Both the position numbers and the translations under genes were made by a program. A DNA stretch of 64,000 nt, taken from positions 1-64,000 of the forward strand of contig JAIQGE010000004.1 in the NCBI GenBank assembly GCA_020072815.1, read 5' to 3'. This DNA is from Terriglobia bacterium (GTDB taxonomy: Bacteria; Acidobacteriota; Terriglobia; Terriglobales; Acidobacteriaceae). The notes under the pieces were generated by a model. The model was given only the letters and a program-made list of their open reading frames with translations, was not told the origin of the DNA and did no database searches. This document shows, piece by piece, positions 50,587-60,103 of the stretch (position 1 is the first letter of the stretch; each line of letters starts with the position of its first letter).

Positions 50587-50627
50587 AGCAAGGTGCGCCG
50601 ATCGTGGAGCACTTAGGAGCGACACAA

Positions 50628-53033
50628 ATGATGTCCCAAGGCAACTTGAGAAAACTGTTCTTCCTGGTTTTCGCAAGCTACACAATCGCGATGGTCGGCT
50701 GCGGTTTCCAGCCTTCTTCTTCCAACTCAAAAACTGTTACAGCCTCAACCGGTAGCGGGAATTCTGCGATAGCTCCTGGCAACCCCAGTGGCAGCTCCAA
50801 TGCGGGCGGCAACCAGCACACCGGCAATAACGGCGGCGGTGGCAACTCTGGTGACGACAACGGCGGCGGCAACGCTGGCGGCGGCAACGCTGGTGGCGGT
50901 AACGCTGGCGGTGGCAACGGCGGCGGCGGTAACGCTGGTGGCGGCAACGGCGGAGGTAATGCCGGTGGTGGTAACGCTGGTGGTGGTAACGCTGGTGGCG
51001 GTAACGCTGGCGGCGGCGACAACGGCGGTGGTAACGCTAGCGGCGGCTCTGGCTCCGGCGGAAATGGAGGAGGCGGCAATGCAAGTGGCGGCAATGGCGG
51101 TGGTGGTAACGCTGGCGGCGGCAATGGTGGCGGCGGCGACGACAATGGTGGTGGCGGCGGCGGCGGCAAAGGAAAAGGCGGCAACGGCGGCGGCGGCGAA
51201 GGAGGCGGTGGCGGCGAACGCAAACTGGCTTCGCTGAAGACCATCTCCGTTCCCGGCCCCACGGCCAGCGAATTGAGCAACGTGGTCTTTGACAAGCAGG
51301 CGACGATTGCTCTGGGCAAGGCGTTCTTCTGGGATATGCAGTTCGGCAGCGACGGCATGACGGCATGCGCAACCTGCCATTACGGCGCCGGCGCCGATTC
51401 GCGCTGGCAGAACCAAATTGATCCCGGACTGCGGCGCGTGGACGGAAACGGCAACTCTTCGCCGGATTCCACGACCTTCAGCTCGCTCACTCCTCCAAAT
51501 CACGCTCTGAAGGCTTCGGATTTCCCCTTCCACAAGCTCTCTGACATCAGCAACTCTGGTTCCGCGGTGCTGTCTGACAACAACAACATCGCCGGATCGC
51601 AGGGCGTGTACGACTACAAATTCAACGACGTCATTCTCGGCCAGGGAGCGGAGGATGAGACAGATGTCCCGGATGCCGTGTGGAACATCAGTTCCGGCGG
51701 CGCGCCGATGAACGTGCGGCGCAGCACGCCGCGCAACGCTCCTTCGGCCATCAACGCGGTGTTCAACTACCGCAACTTCTGGGACGGACGCGCGCAAGGC
51801 ACTTTCAACGGCGTCAATCCCTTTGGCCTGGGAGACCCCAATGCCCGCGTTCTGCAGACAGACTCCGGCGCTGCCAACGGCTTCAGCCCGGTGGCCCTGC
51901 GTTTGTCGAACTCAGCCCTGGCTTCACAGGCAGTTGGACCTCCGGGAAGCGACGTGGAAATGTCGGCGACCGGGCGTCCGTTCGTGAAGATGGGCAAGAA
52001 GATGCTTTCGCTTCAGCCCCTGGCCCACCAGACAGTCGCAGCCGATGACAGCGTCCTATCGAGTCTGAGCGCTGCTCCCGGCCTGGGTCTGAGCACGACT
52101 TACGTGGACATGGTGAAAGCTGCCTTCCAGCCCAAATGGTGGGACTCCAACGCGGTGGTGGACGCCAGCGGCAACTTCCTGCACACCGGAACGCCGCAGA
52201 ACACCAGCGAGTTCTCTCTGATGGAATACAACTTCTCCATGTTCTGGGGAGTTGCCGTCCAGATGTATGAAGCTACCCTGGTTTCCGACAATTCACGCTT
52301 TGACCAGTTCATGGAAGGACGCTCTAGCGCTCTCAACGCTCTGGAACAACGCGGGTTGAATCGCTTCACCGGCAAAGGCGGCTGCAGCAACTGCCATAAC
52401 GGCGCTGAGCTGACTGATGCCACCGTCTCCAACGTGCTCTCCCACGGCAGCGTGGTTGAGAAACTGCCCGGCGGCACCTGGCATGACATTGGGTTCCACA
52501 ACATTGGACTGCGGCCGACCACGGACGACATGGGTCTGGCTGCCGGCGATCCTTCCGGATTGGCTTCCCTCTCTGTGGCTGCCATGGCTTCCCAGGGACT
52601 GGTCTCCGGGACGCCGGTGCCTCAAGGTGCGGCGGTGAGCGTGCGCGGCGCGGTCAAGACGCCCGGGCTGCGTAACATCGAACTCACTGGCCCGTTTTTC
52701 CTGAACGGCGGCCAGGCAACTTTGACCCAGGTGGTGGAGTTCTACAGCCGCGGCGGGGACTTCCCTTCCGCTGATGTGGACCCCAATCTGGAACGGGCAG
52801 GCTTTAGCGCAGACGATATGGCTGCGGTGGTGGCCTTCCTGAAGTCTCTGACGGATGAGCGCGTACGTGCCCAAAGCGCGCCATTTGATCACCCATCGCT
52901 GGTCGTACCCAACGGCATGGTGATGGTGAATGGCGCGATGACGGAACAGACGATCACGATTCCGGCCACAGGCGCCAGCGGCGGCACCGCCCTGCCCAAG
53001 TTCTGCCAGAACATTGGAGCTGCCTGCGACTAA
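50628..53033 (+). CDS. MauG/cytochrome c peroxidase-like di-heme lipoprotein with Gly/Asn-rich linker
   Basis: The ATG 50628, eight bases after AGGAG, gives 801 residues. A lipoprotein signal peptide ends in MVGC (Cys25). Residues about 60-200 are a low-complexity linker of NAGGG-type repeats. The catalytic part follows (about 205-790) with two heme c sites, CATCHYG and CSNCHNG, and MauG/CCP features: ALGKAFFWDMQFGSDGMTACATC, RSTPRNAPSAINAVFNYRNFWDGRA, KTPGLRNIELTGPFFLNG and LTQVVEFYSRGGDF. It would reduce peroxide or oxidise a partner at the outer face of a membrane. The end has a two-Cys tail (FCQNIGAACD). A terminator follows. Confidence 0.85.
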   Translation: MMSQGNLRKLFFLVFASYTIAMVGCGFQPSSSNSKTVTASTGSGNSAIAPGNPSGSSNAGGNQHTGNNGGGGNSGDDNGGGNAGGGNAGGGNAGGGNGGGGNAGGGNGGGNAGGGNAGGGNAGGGNAGGGDNGGGNASGGSGSGGNGGGGNASGGNGGGGNAGGGNGGGGDDNGGGGGGGKGKGGNGGGGEGGGGGERKLASLKTISVPGPTASELSNVVFDKQATIALGKAFFWDMQFGSDGMTACATCHYGAGADSRWQNQIDPGLRRVDGNGNSSPDSTTFSSLTPPNHALKASDFPFHKLSDISNSGSAVLSDNNNIAGSQGVYDYKFNDVILGQGAEDETDVPDAVWNISSGGAPMNVRRSTPRNAPSAINAVFNYRNFWDGRAQGTFNGVNPFGLGDPNARVLQTDSGAANGFSPVALRLSNSALASQAVGPPGSDVEMSATGRPFVKMGKKMLSLQPLAHQTVAADDSVLSSLSAAPGLGLSTTYVDMVKAAFQPKWWDSNAVVDASGNFLHTGTPQNTSEFSLMEYNFSMFWGVAVQMYEATLVSDNSRFDQFMEGRSSALNALEQRGLNRFTGKGGCSNCHNGAELTDATVSNVLSHGSVVEKLPGGTWHDIGFHNIGLRPTTDDMGLAAGDPSGLASLSVAAMASQGLVSGTPVPQGAAVSVRGAVKTPGLRNIELTGPFFLNGGQATLTQVVEFYSRGGDFPSADVDPNLERAGFSADDMAAVVAFLKSLTDERVRAQSAPFDHPSLVVPNGMVMVNGAMTEQTITIPATGASGGTALPKFCQNIGAACD
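50830..51216. repeat. Coding minisatellite (AACGCyGGyGGyGGy units)
   Basis: Runs of a 15-bp unit coding NAGGG, and variants NGGGG and ASGG, make up the linker of the MauG-like protein. Tandem units can change number by slippage, so length may vary between strains. The opposite strand is open too, but only because of this composition. Confidence 0.8.
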
Positions 53034-53100
53034 GAGAAGAGAAGCGACTCGACACGCGACTCAAACAAGTTTGTACCACTTGTTGTATTTGAACACTTGG

Positions 53101-53126
53101 AAAGGCCGCCGCAAGGCGGCCTTTTT
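53101..53126 (+). terminator. Intrinsic terminator of the MauG-like gene
   Basis: AAAGGCCGCC-GCAA-GGCGGCCTTT followed by TTCTC: a perfect 10-bp stem with a short T run, about 70 nt after the stop. A weaker hairpin (AACAAGT..ACTTGTT) precedes it at 53064-53084. Confidence 0.85.
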
Positions 53127-53275
53127 CTCGGTGGAGTCCAATTCCAGGGAAGTTGGCTTTTAGACGAACGTAACATGCAGGCCGATGTCGTCTCTTGCCA
53201 GTTTCTGTCGTTTCGGGCCAGTTGAATGATGGCAGGTTTCGCAGTAGGATCACGATCTTTTCAAGGAAAGTCAGC

Positions 53276-55516
53276 GTGTTTAACGTTCTCGCACGAGCAT
53301 CTTCTTCGCAGTCCTGGACAAACCTGCAGCACCAGCGGGCAACAAAGGTCGTAAACGTTGCCGCCCACTCGTCGGCTGCGCATTGGGCCGCGCGTATGTT
53401 GCTCGCCTTTGTTGTAGTCGCTGGACCAGTCACCCCCGTCGACACACAGGAAGCCCCACAGACATTCCGGCTGGCGTCGGGCCAGGAAACCGGAAATTAC
53501 TACCGGCTCAGCCGCGCATTCCGCGAACGGGCGCTGGAGCACAACCTGGACGTTCAAGTTCTGCTCACCGGCGGGTCCCTGGACAACGTGAAGCTGTTGG
53601 AGAACGGGCAAGCTGACTTTGCCCTGGTTCAAAGCGATATTGCTTTGCGCGCGCTCAAAGGCCACAAGCCGTTCGACTTGCCGGTAGAGCACCTGCGGCT
53701 GGTGACACCGCTTTCTACCGAGGCGGTGCAGATTCTGGTTCGCTCTGATCTTTACATTTTCACCACAGCCGAGCTACGAGGAAAGACTGTCTCCCTGGGG
53801 CCGAAAGGCAGTGGCACGGAGCTCACGGCGCGGGCGATTCTGGAAGCTTCAGGCGTTGGCGTGGAAGAAGCCAAGACCAAGTATTCGCCAACGGACAAAG
53901 TCAACGACGAACTCAAGGAAGAAGAAATTGACGTGGCCTTTCTCAGCAGCTCAGTGCCGACTCCTGCGGTGGCCCAGGCGTTGCGCGAGCGCGAGGGGCG
54001 CCTGCTCGTTCTGGAAAGCCGGGTGATTGAACGGCTCGCCAGCAGCGGCAGCTACTTTGAAACGGTGATTCCCAAGCACACCTATCCCAACCAAATGGAA
54101 GAGTTGCCCACCATCGGTGTGCAGGCCCTGGTGCTCACTCGCGATGACGTTGACCCTGCGCTGGTGTCCCGTGTGCTGCAAACACTGCAGTCAGAAAGAA
54201 AAGAGATTGAACGCAGCGCTGGGGTGCGGATGGATCTGATCGGGATCCTGCCGCTCAGCCAAAGTTTTCCCATTCACCCGGGCAGCCGCCCATGGTTGCG
54301 GAACGCCGGCAATAACCAGGCCCTGGTCCTGATCACCATTGCTCTGGCGTTTGCTTTCTGCGTGGTGGTTTTCATCAAACAACGCCACATTCGCCGCTCC
54401 ATGGCGGTCCACGGCGAACTCCTCCTGGGCGTTCTCACTCTGGCGCTAGTGTGGTTGCTCAGTTCCACGGGACTCTACTACTTTGAACGCAATTTCAATG
54501 AGAACTTTTCAACTTTCCCCAAGGCGGTGTGGTCCATGCTGGTGTACGTCTCCGGGGGATTTCAGTCGCGAAGCCCGGTGACGCACGGCGGAGAAGTAGT
54601 TTCGGTGTTTGCCATCGTGGTGGGCGTGGGGGTGGTCGCCTGGTTCACCGCGCAACTCGCCGGGCATTTTGTGACCGCCAAGCTGGAAGGACTGGAGAAT
54701 TTTCTGTTAGGGAGAAATCGCGTGCCTGCAAACCTTGAGAACCACATCGTCATCATCAACTGGGACCATCGCATTGAGAGCATGGTGGAACAGCTCCACG
54801 GTCCCGACTTCAAGGACAAAAAGAAAATCATTGTGATTGCGGAAGAGCGAGTCAGCCTTCCTGACCGGCCTGAATTTGAGTCCTGCATCCTGACCGTGGG
54901 AAACCCCATGGATAAGCGGGTCCTCACCGATGCGCGAGTGCAACGGGCCCATTCCGTCACAATTCTGTCTTCCTGGCCCAACCTGGACGCGGCGGAAAGA
55001 CGAAGGATGCTGGACCCTGACGCGGCGGACGCGCGCACTGTCCTGACCATTCTTGCCATCAGGACCTTAGACGGGCAGCTCCCCTCCAACGCGGCGGTTC
55101 CCATCACGGCGGAGATCCGTTGCAGCAAGAATTCTGATGCCGCCGAGAGCGCCGGACGGGGCGGCCCAACTGAGATCATCTGTGTGGAAAGATTCGGAGC
55201 CAATCTTCTGACGCAGTGCGCCCTGACTCCCGGTCTGGTTTCTTTGTATGAGGACTTGCTGAGTTTTGCCCCGGGCACTGACGAGATCTACAAAATCCAG
55301 TTGCCTGAATGTTGCGTAGGGATGAGTTTCAGCCAGGTGCTGCGTTATTTTTCTGACCGGAGATCTTCCAAGGGCCACGCCGTAATTCCCATCGGCATTG
55401 CGCGGGAGGGCAAAGTGTACCTCAACCCGGGAGAATCCGACAGCGGCATTGGCAGCCTGCGTAACCAAGATTCATTGTTTGTGATTTCAGACCACGAGCA
55501 CAGCCACAGCGATTGA
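53276..55516 (+). CDS. TAXI-type ligand-binding domain fused to ion channel and RCK-like domain
   Basis: Start GTG 53276 (AAGGA upstream) gives 746 residues. After a signal or anchor helix (about 41-53) comes a TAXI-family solute-binding domain (about 62-325): LASGQETGNYYRLSRAF, LTGGSLDNVKLLENGQADFALVQSDIA and GSGTELTARAILEASG. Then helix 350-368, helix 381-400, a pore-helix-like stretch FPKAVWSMLVYVSGGF (414-429), and helix 440-461. The rest (487-746) resembles an RCK/TrkA-N module, HIVIINWDHRIESMVEQL, with FESCILTVGNPMDKRVLTDA, TVLTILAIRTLDG and VPITAEIR. The position of the TVGYG filter reads VSGGFQ, so it is not a standard potassium channel; CASTOR/POLLUX-like channels also lack TVGYG. 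I infer a ligand-gated channel with ligand binding in the periplasm. Confidence 0.75.
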   Translation: MFNVLARASSSQSWTNLQHQRATKVVNVAAHSSAAHWAARMLLAFVVVAGPVTPVDTQEAPQTFRLASGQETGNYYRLSRAFRERALEHNLDVQVLLTGGSLDNVKLLENGQADFALVQSDIALRALKGHKPFDLPVEHLRLVTPLSTEAVQILVRSDLYIFTTAELRGKTVSLGPKGSGTELTARAILEASGVGVEEAKTKYSPTDKVNDELKEEEIDVAFLSSSVPTPAVAQALREREGRLLVLESRVIERLASSGSYFETVIPKHTYPNQMEELPTIGVQALVLTRDDVDPALVSRVLQTLQSERKEIERSAGVRMDLIGILPLSQSFPIHPGSRPWLRNAGNNQALVLITIALAFAFCVVVFIKQRHIRRSMAVHGELLLGVLTLALVWLLSSTGLYYFERNFNENFSTFPKAVWSMLVYVSGGFQSRSPVTHGGEVVSVFAIVVGVGVVAWFTAQLAGHFVTAKLEGLENFLLGRNRVPANLENHIVIINWDHRIESMVEQLHGPDFKDKKKIIVIAEERVSLPDRPEFESCILTVGNPMDKRVLTDARVQRAHSVTILSSWPNLDAAERRRMLDPDAADARTVLTILAIRTLDGQLPSNAAVPITAEIRCSKNSDAAESAGRGGPTEIICVERFGANLLTQCALTPGLVSLYEDLLSFAPGTDEIYKIQLPECCVGMSFSQVLRYFSDRRSSKGHAVIPIGIAREGKVYLNPGESDSGIGSLRNQDSLFVISDHEHSHSD

Positions 55517-55590
55517 GCAGCCCCGGAGCGCAGTCCAGCTTCCGGCTGATGGCCAAGTCAGCGGCTAGGCAGAATGGCCCGGCGGCAGCG

Positions 55591-55800
55591 CTAGAGGATG
55601 TTGAACAGTGCTTCGTCCACGGCTTTTTCTTCAGGACGGCACTCGTGCCCGTCAAAGTCAGCCTGAAGCTGCGCTTTGGCACGGTCAGAATCGTGCAGGT
55701 TTTCCGTGCGGGTACGGAACGCCAGCTTGCAGACGTCACAATACGCCGTGCTGGGCGTGGCGCCGATAAAGCGTACGATCTTGAGGTTGCGCTCGGGCAT
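55591..55800 (-). CDS. Small Cys/His protein, possible zinc binder
   Basis: The ATG at 55800 gives 69 residues: MPERNLKIVRFIGATPSTAY then CDVCKLAFRT and GHECRPEEKAVDEALF. The CxxC and HxC pairs are spaced like a small zinc ribbon. The reading extends to 55836 with another ATG. It is the only open frame with coding character between the channel gene and the peptidase. It is convergent with the channel gene. No family name can be given. Confidence 0.5.
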   Translation of the reverse strand: MPERNLKIVRFIGATPSTAYCDVCKLAFRTRTENLHDSDRAKAQLQADFDGHECRPEEKAVDEALFNIL

Positions 55801-58354: not shown

Positions 58355-59461
58355 TCACAGCTTCCCCTTCGGAGGCTTTTCCCGCGCGCCCTCATCCGCC
58401 CGCAGCGCCCTGATCAACTTTTCTACCTGCGCATCGAACTTCCCGCCCGTGCCGCTCTCCGCGAAATCCGCAGCCAGCCGACGCCGGATCTGCGCCTGAT
58501 AGCCGGGCTTCGAGTTGCACTTGTCGCTGAAGAGATAGCCGTCCAGGTTGAGCGGAACCAGCACCTGCACCTTGGCACCGCGTTCTTTCATGAGTTGCTG
58601 TTCTTTCTCAAAGGCCGTCCCAATTTCGTTGTCCACCCACCAACTGGTGAGGGAATGCTCTGAGCAACACAGCAGCATCTTGTCCCACAGCCGGATGCCC
58701 CGGTCAACTTCGTGGTAAATGTCATCGCCGGGCAGGAGTTGGTGTTCGTCCAGCCAGCAGCGGACGCCCTGCCCCTGAAGAGTGTCATGGAGTTGCCGGG
58801 CAAAGGCCTTGTCTGCGTGGCTGTAGCTGATAAAGCACGAGTAAAACTCAATGGGCGACATGGCCGCCACAAGCGACTTGATCTGGGCGATGAAAGGCTC
58901 TGGAACGCCAGCCCCGCGCAGGAAGACTTCCGGGATATTTCCGCCGGAACGGTAGATTGTGTCAATGCCGATGGTGGATGGGCCAAGATGGGCGACAGTC
59001 TCTAAGCCCTTACATCGACTCAAATCGACGTTTCCGAGCTGAGTCGTTTCCATCCTGCAATTGCTAAAGTCCGCCTCGCCGAGCTCTGCCCCGGTGAGAT
59101 TTGCCGCACGGAGGTCTGCTTTGTTGAGGTTCGCCCCGTGGAGGTCTGCAAAATTGAGGTTCGCCGCGCTGAGTTGGGCTCCGCAGAGTTTCGCACGGCT
59201 GAGGTCCGCCCTGAAGAGAATTGCCCCTTGAAGTTCCGCCCCACTGAGGTTCGCCCGGCTGAGACCCGCTCCACGGAAGTGCGCCCAGGGAAAGTACGAT
59301 TGTTGATAGCTCGTCGCGCTGAGATTCGCTCCGCTGAGGTCCGCCCAGTCGAGATCTGCATGGCTGAGATCCAGCCAAGTCTCAGGGTTCGCCTTGCGCC
59401 ACTCGTTCCAGGCTTTGACTCCCTGCTCTCTGAGAATCTTGACTTGAGCTTCGTCGGCCAC
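58355..59461 (-). CDS. TIR-domain protein with pentapeptide repeats
   Basis: The 368-residue protein has a short helix (1-30) and about 22 pentapeptide repeats A(D/N)LxX (31-150), as in [20 protein letters not shown] linker [20 protein letters not shown] (163-182) leads to a TIR domain (206-345): [40 protein letters not shown], and [21 protein letters not shown], whose Glu279 is a candidate NADase residue. Bacterial TIR proteins often cut NAD+ or make signal nucleotides in phage defence; here no partner effector is adjacent. The architecture is known from other bacteria, function unknown. No membrane segment. Confidence 0.88.
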
Positions 59462-59583: not shown

Positions 59584-59660
59584 CGAACGAGCCTAGCCCA
59601 GGTGCGGAAGCCCTGGGTAACGGTGGCACCAAAAGGCTCGAGCCCCGTAGGGCGCGACAC
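59584..59660. repeat. REP element, left flank of RAYT unit 2
   Basis: It matches the REP flanks of unit 1 (GAACGAGCCTAGCCCAGG..GGAAGCCCTGGG..CCCCGTAGGGCGCGACAC). It abuts the stop of the minus-strand RAYT gene, just as in unit 1. Confidence 0.7.
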
Positions 59661-60103
59661 TACCCAAATACGTACTTCGGATCAAACGGCACACCATGCT
59701 TTTTCAACAAAGAGATAAATTCGTCTTCAAAACTGATCTTGCGATGATGTGCTTCCTGGTTGTCAATGTACTTGATCACCGCTGCAACATTGGATGAACT
59801 CACCGCGAAGGCACCATATCCTTCCTGCCATGCAAAGCCCTTATTTTGATGCCTAATCCATTTTGAAGTATTGGACTTCACAAGAGTCACGGCGTTGGCC
59901 AACGTTACCGTAGGAGGCAATCGAAACAGCAGGTGGATGTGGTCTTCCATGCCGCCTACGGCAAACGTTAATAAATCATGGTTCTTGCACACCGCCGCCG
60001 TGTAGGCCCATAGTCGGGGTAGAAAGTCCCTAGGTAGGACTTTCTCGCGGTGCTTTGTGCTGAACACCAGGTGGATATGGTTTTGTGCGTAGCTGTGAGA
60101 CAT
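59660..60103 (-). CDS. REP-associated tyrosine transposase (RAYT), copy 2
   Basis: The 147-residue protein differs from the copy at 27831 at about 11 positions, keeping EDHIHLLF (HUH) and the Tyr of YIDNQEAHH, so it is probably also active. The stop abuts the left REP. The ATG 60103 directly follows the right REP, whose GGAGGGG supplies the ribosome site, so the REP hairpin may influence translation of its own transposase. The two copies are in opposite orientation, 32 kb apart. Confidence 0.9.
   Translation of the reverse strand: MSHSYAQNHIHLVFSTKHREKVLPRDFLPRLWAYTAAVCKNHDLLTFAVGGMEDHIHLLFRLPPTVTLANAVTLVKSNTSKWIRHQNKGFAWQEGYGAFAVSSSNVAAVIKYIDNQEAHHRKISFEDEFISLLKKHGVPFDPKYVFG

Follow-up and report, generated by a model that had tools for sequence, protein, structure and literature searches.

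Among channels with RCK domains, MthK is K-selective and has two transmembrane (2-TM) helices and no known outside domain, and the plant nuclear channel CASTOR likewise has no known outside ligand domain. Each MthK chain carries one RCK domain, and a soluble RCK protein is made from an in-frame internal start at Met107 (PMC2920069, PMC9440719). CASTOR has two tandem RCK domains and an AD(S/A)GNHA filter (PMC6697748). Prokaryotic ionotropic glutamate receptors, including GluR0, place an outside solute-binding fold on a 2-TM pore and take a glutamate-type ligand (PMC2950845). Their family-3 binding domain is divided into two sections flanking the pore helices, Group 1 has a K-type filter, and the main text of that survey mentions neither TAXI nor NMT1 (PMC2950845). 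Binding domains of the TAXI family feed transporters in TAXI-TRAP and TAXI-GltS systems (PMC11574862, PMC12344293), and a term search of the accessible text of the TAXI-GltS paper (PMC12344293) did not find the word "channel".

The present study describes a gene in the window (the whole 64,000-nt stretch of DNA analyzed) that joins a TAXI domain to a channel pore instead of a transporter. The encoded protein shares its binding-domain family with TAXI-TRAP and TAXI-GltS and its glutamate-contact residues with VcGluP. In contrast to GluR0, its TAXI domain is uncut and N-terminal to the pore rather than split around it, an extra helix follows this domain, its filter differs from TVGYG, and the chain includes an RCK domain. 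Similar to CASTOR, POLLUX, and DMI1 of plant nuclei, it lacks TVGYG, and among solved structures its RCK domain is nearest to theirs by sequence; however, it has a single RCK domain and the filter SGGFQS. In common with MthK, the top fold match of its channel part, it has one RCK domain per chain; an internal start before this domain is predicted. The first-pass annotation of this locus had proposed a ligand-gated channel made of TAXI, pore, and RCK modules; that reading was supported overall, and its structural claims held. No TAXI-channel fusion appeared among the papers listed in literature searches, for which most subscription journals were out of reach. This family seems to represent a type of ligand-gated channel not previously described in bacteria.

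Gene and genomic context

The gene (Table 1) is a single frame of 746 codons without a stop, as had been annotated, and lies on a 240-kb contig. Its start codon is GTG, with AAGGAAAG ending 5 nt upstream; this start is not certain because the longest listed form begins at TTG 53195, and ATG 53396 is a further possible start. No sigma-70-like promoter was found in window 53030–55700.

The sister genome G002 has the flanks in the same order and a clean empty site at the position of the gene: its left flank aligns to 53126, its right flank picks up at 55597, and 16 nt lie between them. The block missing there has a GC content of 0.580 (0.599 for the window) and was either gained by transfer or lost in the sister. 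None of 99 other genomes, from genus to class, encodes a protein covering both the TAXI and channel parts, and this lack of a complete copy among relatives would suit a chimeric assembly or a frameshift joining two genes, for which the annotation had singled out 54290–54330. However, the frame is unbroken there, the flanks are syntenic to G002, and the same domain order, which the annotation had named as a sign of a real family, recurs in 16 other proteins from several phyla. Homologues with this order and the syntenic empty site refute an assembly chimera, and we regard the chance of an artefact of either kind as negligible.

The neighbours of the gene encode a di-haem peroxidase and a zinc metallopeptidase (Pfam), and they are silent on its function. 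The di-haem peroxidase family protein at 50604–53033 has a long Gly/Asn-rich N-terminal stretch. Elsewhere in the window, a TIR domain is joined to pentapeptide repeats (58355–59461, minus strand), and an IS200-like (Y1) transposase is encoded at 59660–60103 (minus strand).

Table 1. Positions in the window of the TAXI-channel gene and its predicted parts (residue numbers in parentheses).
Feature	Position	Strand	Basis
Whole gene (746 aa): TAXI, three membrane helices plus pore loop, RCK	53276–55516	+	Translation, Pfam, NCBIfam
Block missing from sister genome G002	53127–55596	+	Flank alignment
Hydrophobic N-terminal stretch (36–59), likely signal sequence or anchor	53381–53452	+	Sequence; model helix 33–49
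TAXI ligand-binding domain (62–344), predicted extracellular	53459–54307	+	Pfam, NCBIfam, VcGluP alignment, AlphaFold2, Foldseek
Span with putative glutamate-contact residues	53498–53722	+	Alignment to VcGluP
Y75 (VcGluP Y45)	53498–53500	+	Alignment
S101 (VcGluP S75)	53576–53578	+	Alignment
Q119 (VcGluP Q93)	53630–53632	+	Alignment
E149 (VcGluP E125)	53720–53722	+	Alignment
Membrane helix TM0 (347–370), then KQRHIRR, consistent with cytoplasmic side	54314–54385	+	Sequence, model
TM1, outer pore helix (379–404)	54410–54487	+	Model
Pore helix and filter loop (414–434)	54515–54577	+	Alignment, model
Filter SGGFQS in place of TVGYGD	54551–54568	+	Ungapped loop alignment
TM2, inner pore helix (437–477)	54584–54706	+	Models
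Predicted internal start: AGGGAG 54709–54714, GTG 54722–54724 (Val483)	54709–54724	+	SD and start-codon analysis
RCK domain, CASTOR/DMI1-type (490–738), predicted cytoplasmic	54743–55489	+	Pfam, model, fold match, sequence search

Domain architecture

The TAXI domain was identified by Pfam NMT1_3, which is the TAXI family (residues 67–342, E 9e-48), and by NCBIfam TRAP_TAXI (residues 40–342, E 3e-53; 180.9 bits vs a cut-off of 84.35). Ion_trans_2 matched residues 390–462 with 22.3 bits, just under its cut-off of 22.5. Slo-like_RCK (residues 487–605, E 1e-8) and Castor_Poll_mid (residues 643–743, E 5e-12) were both over their cut-offs, and Pfam thereby places a single RCK region after the inner helix, without a tandem pair.

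The AlphaFold2 model of the full chain (alignment of 30 sequences) had a mean pLDDT of 80.4 and a pTM of 0.51; since the latter is low, the relative placement of the domains is unreliable. The TAXI fold spans approximately residues 62–344, with pLDDT mostly >90, and is followed by helices 347–370 and 379–404, a pore helix at 414–427, a helix at 437–477, and an RCK fold at approximately 490–738. The outer helix, pore helix, and inner helix of a 2-TM channel are all present, and the three membrane helices with a pore-helix stretch of the first-pass annotation are recovered. The charge pattern fits a TAXI domain outside and both KQRHIRR and the RCK domain inside. In Foldseek searches with the full model, VcGluP and other TAXI proteins came first (TMt 0.85), followed by Slo channels, other binding proteins, and GsuK. 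The channel part modelled alone (pLDDT 83.9, pTM 0.58) matched MthK first and then Slo and GsuK, with the ring of CASTOR also among the matches; the TM-scores of these matches were modest (TMq up to 0.41). A membrane part without a pore fold, which the annotation had considered damaging, was not seen.

The RCK domain had been described as MthK-type with an NAD-binding look. An RCK fold with MthK as its first match stands; by sequence, however, the domain is of the CASTOR/DMI1 type and not a typical NAD-binding one. Against solved structures, only DMI1 and CASTOR were found with the RCK part at E ≤ 0.01, the closest match having E 3e-7. The first RCK strand, HIVIINW, lacks the glycine-rich NAD motif.

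The fused family and its distribution

A search of 396 genomes of the phylum (E ≤ 1e-8, up to two candidates per genome scored) revealed at least three fused proteins besides that of the window (G131, G106, and G418). A scan of genome contigs with the channel part yielded 47 loci; the same contigs scanned with the whole window protein, and a scan of viral contigs, returned no relative. When every frame of at least 80 residues in these loci was searched with a TAXI profile, 14 of the 47 were positive; the TAXI and channel matches share a frame at 13, and at L098 TAXI lies in the preceding frame. The fused proteins therefore number 17 (the window, these 14 loci, G106, and G418), with G131 and L062 sharing a frame. 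They occur in Acidobacteriota, Planctomycetota including Uabimicrobium, Myxococcota, and one unplaced bacterium (L098). Four of them (L062, L077, L088, and L093) are cut by contig ends.

In Pfam searches, TAXI was over cut-off in 17/17 and at least one RCK-region profile in 16/17, with L098 narrowly short. Ion_trans_2 was under cut-off in all 17 and listed in 11; for L083, L085, L087, L098, G106, and G418, which lack a pore-profile match, the pore rests on alignment. The domain facts are firm, the pore being the least so in these six proteins.

At least 2 of 294 sampled genomes in the phylum of L069 (Planctomycetota; up to three candidates per genome scored) encode a fused protein, namely, L069's own and Uabimicrobium, as do at least 2 of 5 in the phylum of L083; all of these were already known, and the family is therefore considered to be rare. 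None of 331 plasmid records with a match covers 80% of the window protein, and the matches listed are to TAXI only. L073 was not counted as fused: its N-terminal extension of ~470 residues has no Pfam match and looks like a frame open by chance in GC-rich DNA.

In the TAXI tree, the fused rows require three changes, with which a single origin of the fused TAXI domains is possibly compatible. In the channel tree, which was built quickly, has several long branches, contains L098 by its second RCK frame only, and includes G353 and L080 as identical rows, they require at least five changes; since starred branches force only two of these, both gain and loss of the TAXI domain are possible. Neither tree establishes the fused rows as a single clade.

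G106 is a fused protein with two RCK domains. At L098 (3739–6870), a separate RCK-only frame lies directly behind the TAXI-channel frame, similar to a split version of this tandem form. The channel-only loci within L061–L107 form a wide set of CASTOR-like bacterial channels that lack both TVGYG and an outside domain; they mostly have an FSGLD-type filter and carry strong internal start signals before the RCK domain.

Putative ligand site

In VcGluP, Y45, S75, Q93, and E125 contact glutamate; Y45A and Q93A lower affinity 213- and 990-fold, respectively, and Y45 and Q93 occur in 78% and 54% of the TAXI sequences of that study (PMC11574862). We aligned the window protein to VcGluP structure 8s4j, with the numbering derived from its letters. 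The annotation had suggested a small carboxylate, such as glutamate, and retention of the main glutamate-contact residues (Table 1) sharpens this guess. Equivalents of Y45, Q93, and E125 were all present in 15/15 fused domains vs 2/29 unfused TAXI domains (28 from Acidobacteriota; no channel match in any of their frames). L062 was left out of this comparison because it is cut, and L098, read by eye, has Y, Q, and E. At the S75 position, six of the 15 carry Ser, seven Thr, and two Ala. The two unfused domains with Y, Q, and E are L114/L129, which closes a long repeat-rich frame of the Uabimicrobium genome, and L005, from a protein with a C-terminal hydrophobic stretch in the window's own family.

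Of the VcGluP residues that hold water around the glutamate side chain, the window protein has Y46 and E125. S40, H123, Y200, and G203 are not kept; therefore, the ligand could be another amino acid. Judged from the contact residues, the ligand is likely an amino acid, with glutamate as the best guess.

These residues also bear on the role of the domain. Channel-only relatives that share the pore and RCK domain but have no TAXI domain are numerous, indicating that the pore can work without one; the TAXI domain may bind a ligand and yet merely modulate, anchor, or localize an RCK-gated channel whose main gate is the cytoplasmic ring. However, an anchor alone would not need the three main ligand residues found in every fused domain compared, and we consider this explanation to be rather unlikely.

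Profile searches detected one TAXI domain in the genome of the window, the fused one. A profile search of the whole genome found no match to DctM, the TRAP permease (7/14 control genomes positive), in agreement with the annotation's report of no TRAP permease, and none to GltS (PF03616; 2/14 control genomes positive). This TAXI domain is thus without a known transporter partner. TAXI proteins normally serve transporters and TAXI-GltS fusions exist, for which movement of the ligand by the membrane part has been proposed (PMC12344293). A comparable binding-protein dependent uptake system is nevertheless very improbable here, because the membrane part has the build of a 2-TM pore followed by an RCK domain and not that of an elevator transporter; we rejected it based on this fold and the lack of DctM and GltS matches.

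Pore and selectivity filter

The annotation had read VSGGFQ rather than TVGYG at the filter position. The departure from TVGYG was confirmed, and the ungapped loop alignment sets SGGFQS exactly against TVGYGD. In 48 pore-bearing rows, TVG[YF]G was present in 11 and absent in 37, among them all 16 aligned fused rows; L098, read by eye, has no TVGYG either. The pore loops of G418 and L062 align poorly. In KcsA numbering, the filter glycine Gly77 is kept in 14 of the 16 fused rows, and position 79, as aligned, is Glu in 13 and Gly in 2, with Gln in the window protein alone. The TVG[YF]G rows lie on one side of a branch of the channel tree (SH-aLRT 99), apart from the fused pores. K-channel selectivity was rejected because TVGYG is absent from the 16 aligned pores and L098, and the pore is likely not K-selective, since its filter is without the second glycine of TVGYG. 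Filters vary among fused Acidobacteriota (SGGFQS, SGLESK, LNFGSK, and KAGELF); therefore, selectivity need not be common to the fused proteins.

This degeneracy may also indicate a non-conducting sensor that relays a signal from the TAXI domain across the membrane part to the RCK domain, with the latter acting on another protein. We regard such a sensor as improbable because the pore helix, the filter glycine (14/16), and the inner helix are kept and the fold matches MthK and Slo. The TAXI-channel protein is likely a channel.

Clostridial tandem-RCK channels at L103 (5944–7998) and L107 (3133–5250) have LDAGN/LDAGC filters resembling that of plant CASTOR, and are possibly a bacterial sister group.

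Predicted internal translation start before the RCK domain

Initiation at GTG 54722 is predicted from the sequence and would yield a soluble RCK protein of 264 residues. An ATG or GTG lies 7–9 codons upstream of the first RCK strand in 30/30 aligned rows. Anti-SD pairing in these rows averaged -8.95 vs -6.02 under synonymous resampling (0/300 sums as low), where the better of two start codons in range was taken, which favours the signal; the mean at 222 other internal ATGs was -3.24. For the window alone, the values were -8.9 vs -4.1, a level reached in 2% of resamplings. Among 14 fused rows, the share was 0.02 for the window, 0.09 for L094, and between 0.20 and 0.92 for the other 12, and the SD of the 13 rows other than the window is thus explicable by protein sequence alone.

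We then counted ATG, GTG, or TTG within 4–10 codons before the RCK domain with a pairing of -5 or better, a cut and range chosen after the result of a narrower rule had been seen (ATG or GTG at 7–9 codons: 32/51 rows vs a background of 12%). Such a start was present in 41/43 single-RCK channels vs 0/5 tandem-RCK channels, with a background of 9.9% in equal stretches. The Fisher value of 1e-5 for single- vs tandem-RCK channels is overstated because the rows are related. The two single-RCK misses, L083 and L085, have a weak SD only. The tandem set consisted of L090, L095, L103, L107, and G106; L090 and L095 have two RCK domains by Pfam, and the first was scored. L077, L088, L093, and L097 are cut or broken before the RCK end, so their RCK number is not known; without these four, the count is 37/39. 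Poreless frames (L082, L086, L091, L092, and the second frame of L098) were excluded. This pattern is new here and would make the MthK feature a wider one, shared by many CASTOR-like channels of bacteria. In Paenibacillaceae, the TVGYG channels L100–L102 and L104–L106 have TTG with a strong SD just before the RCK domain (6/6).

Proposed mechanism

We consider it reasonably probable that the gene encodes a ligand-gated cation channel in which an outside amino acid gates a tetrameric pore with a ring of eight RCK domains. The TAXI domain would lie outside the inner membrane and shut around an alpha-amino acid in the manner of a flytrap; glutamate or a close relative is the most likely ligand. 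Closure may tug on TM0 and the pore. Homology and the fold matches of single chains suggest that four subunits would form the 2-TM pore, which, without the second TVGYG glycine, would probably not select K. Four tethered RCK domains and four soluble ones from the internal GTG, the signal for which is present, may assemble into an eight-member gating ring. By analogy with GluR0, we infer that the ligand opens the pore and lets ions pass. With an outside TAXI sensor and an inside RCK gating ring, the channel would respond jointly to an amino acid outside the cell and to some signal within it.

More tentatively, we speculate that these proteins may represent a distinct class of glutamate receptor channel in bacteria, independent of GluR0 and animal glutamate receptors, whose non-K-selective pore (perhaps for Na+/Ca2+) would be gated by an uncut TAXI domain and would have an eight-part RCK ring made from two starts in one gene. 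If true, amino-acid gated channels arose more than once in bacteria, here with another binding domain and topology than GluR0, and an outside ligand sensor and an RCK domain are united in one chain. The ligand guess, the binding residues, the filter outside the K-channel rule, and the predicted second product are all testable.

In six planctomycete loci (L069, L070, L072, L074, L076, and L094), a conserved gene cluster lies near the TAXI-channel gene. Pfam analysis, which covered L070 and L094, assigned the neighbours as an MscS-like channel, a secretin-domain protein, and an SdiA-regulated family protein. The MscS-like and secretin neighbours hint at a possible osmotic or envelope role, where glutamate is a common solute. 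The gene for the SdiA-regulated family protein is on the other strand in 5/6 of these loci.
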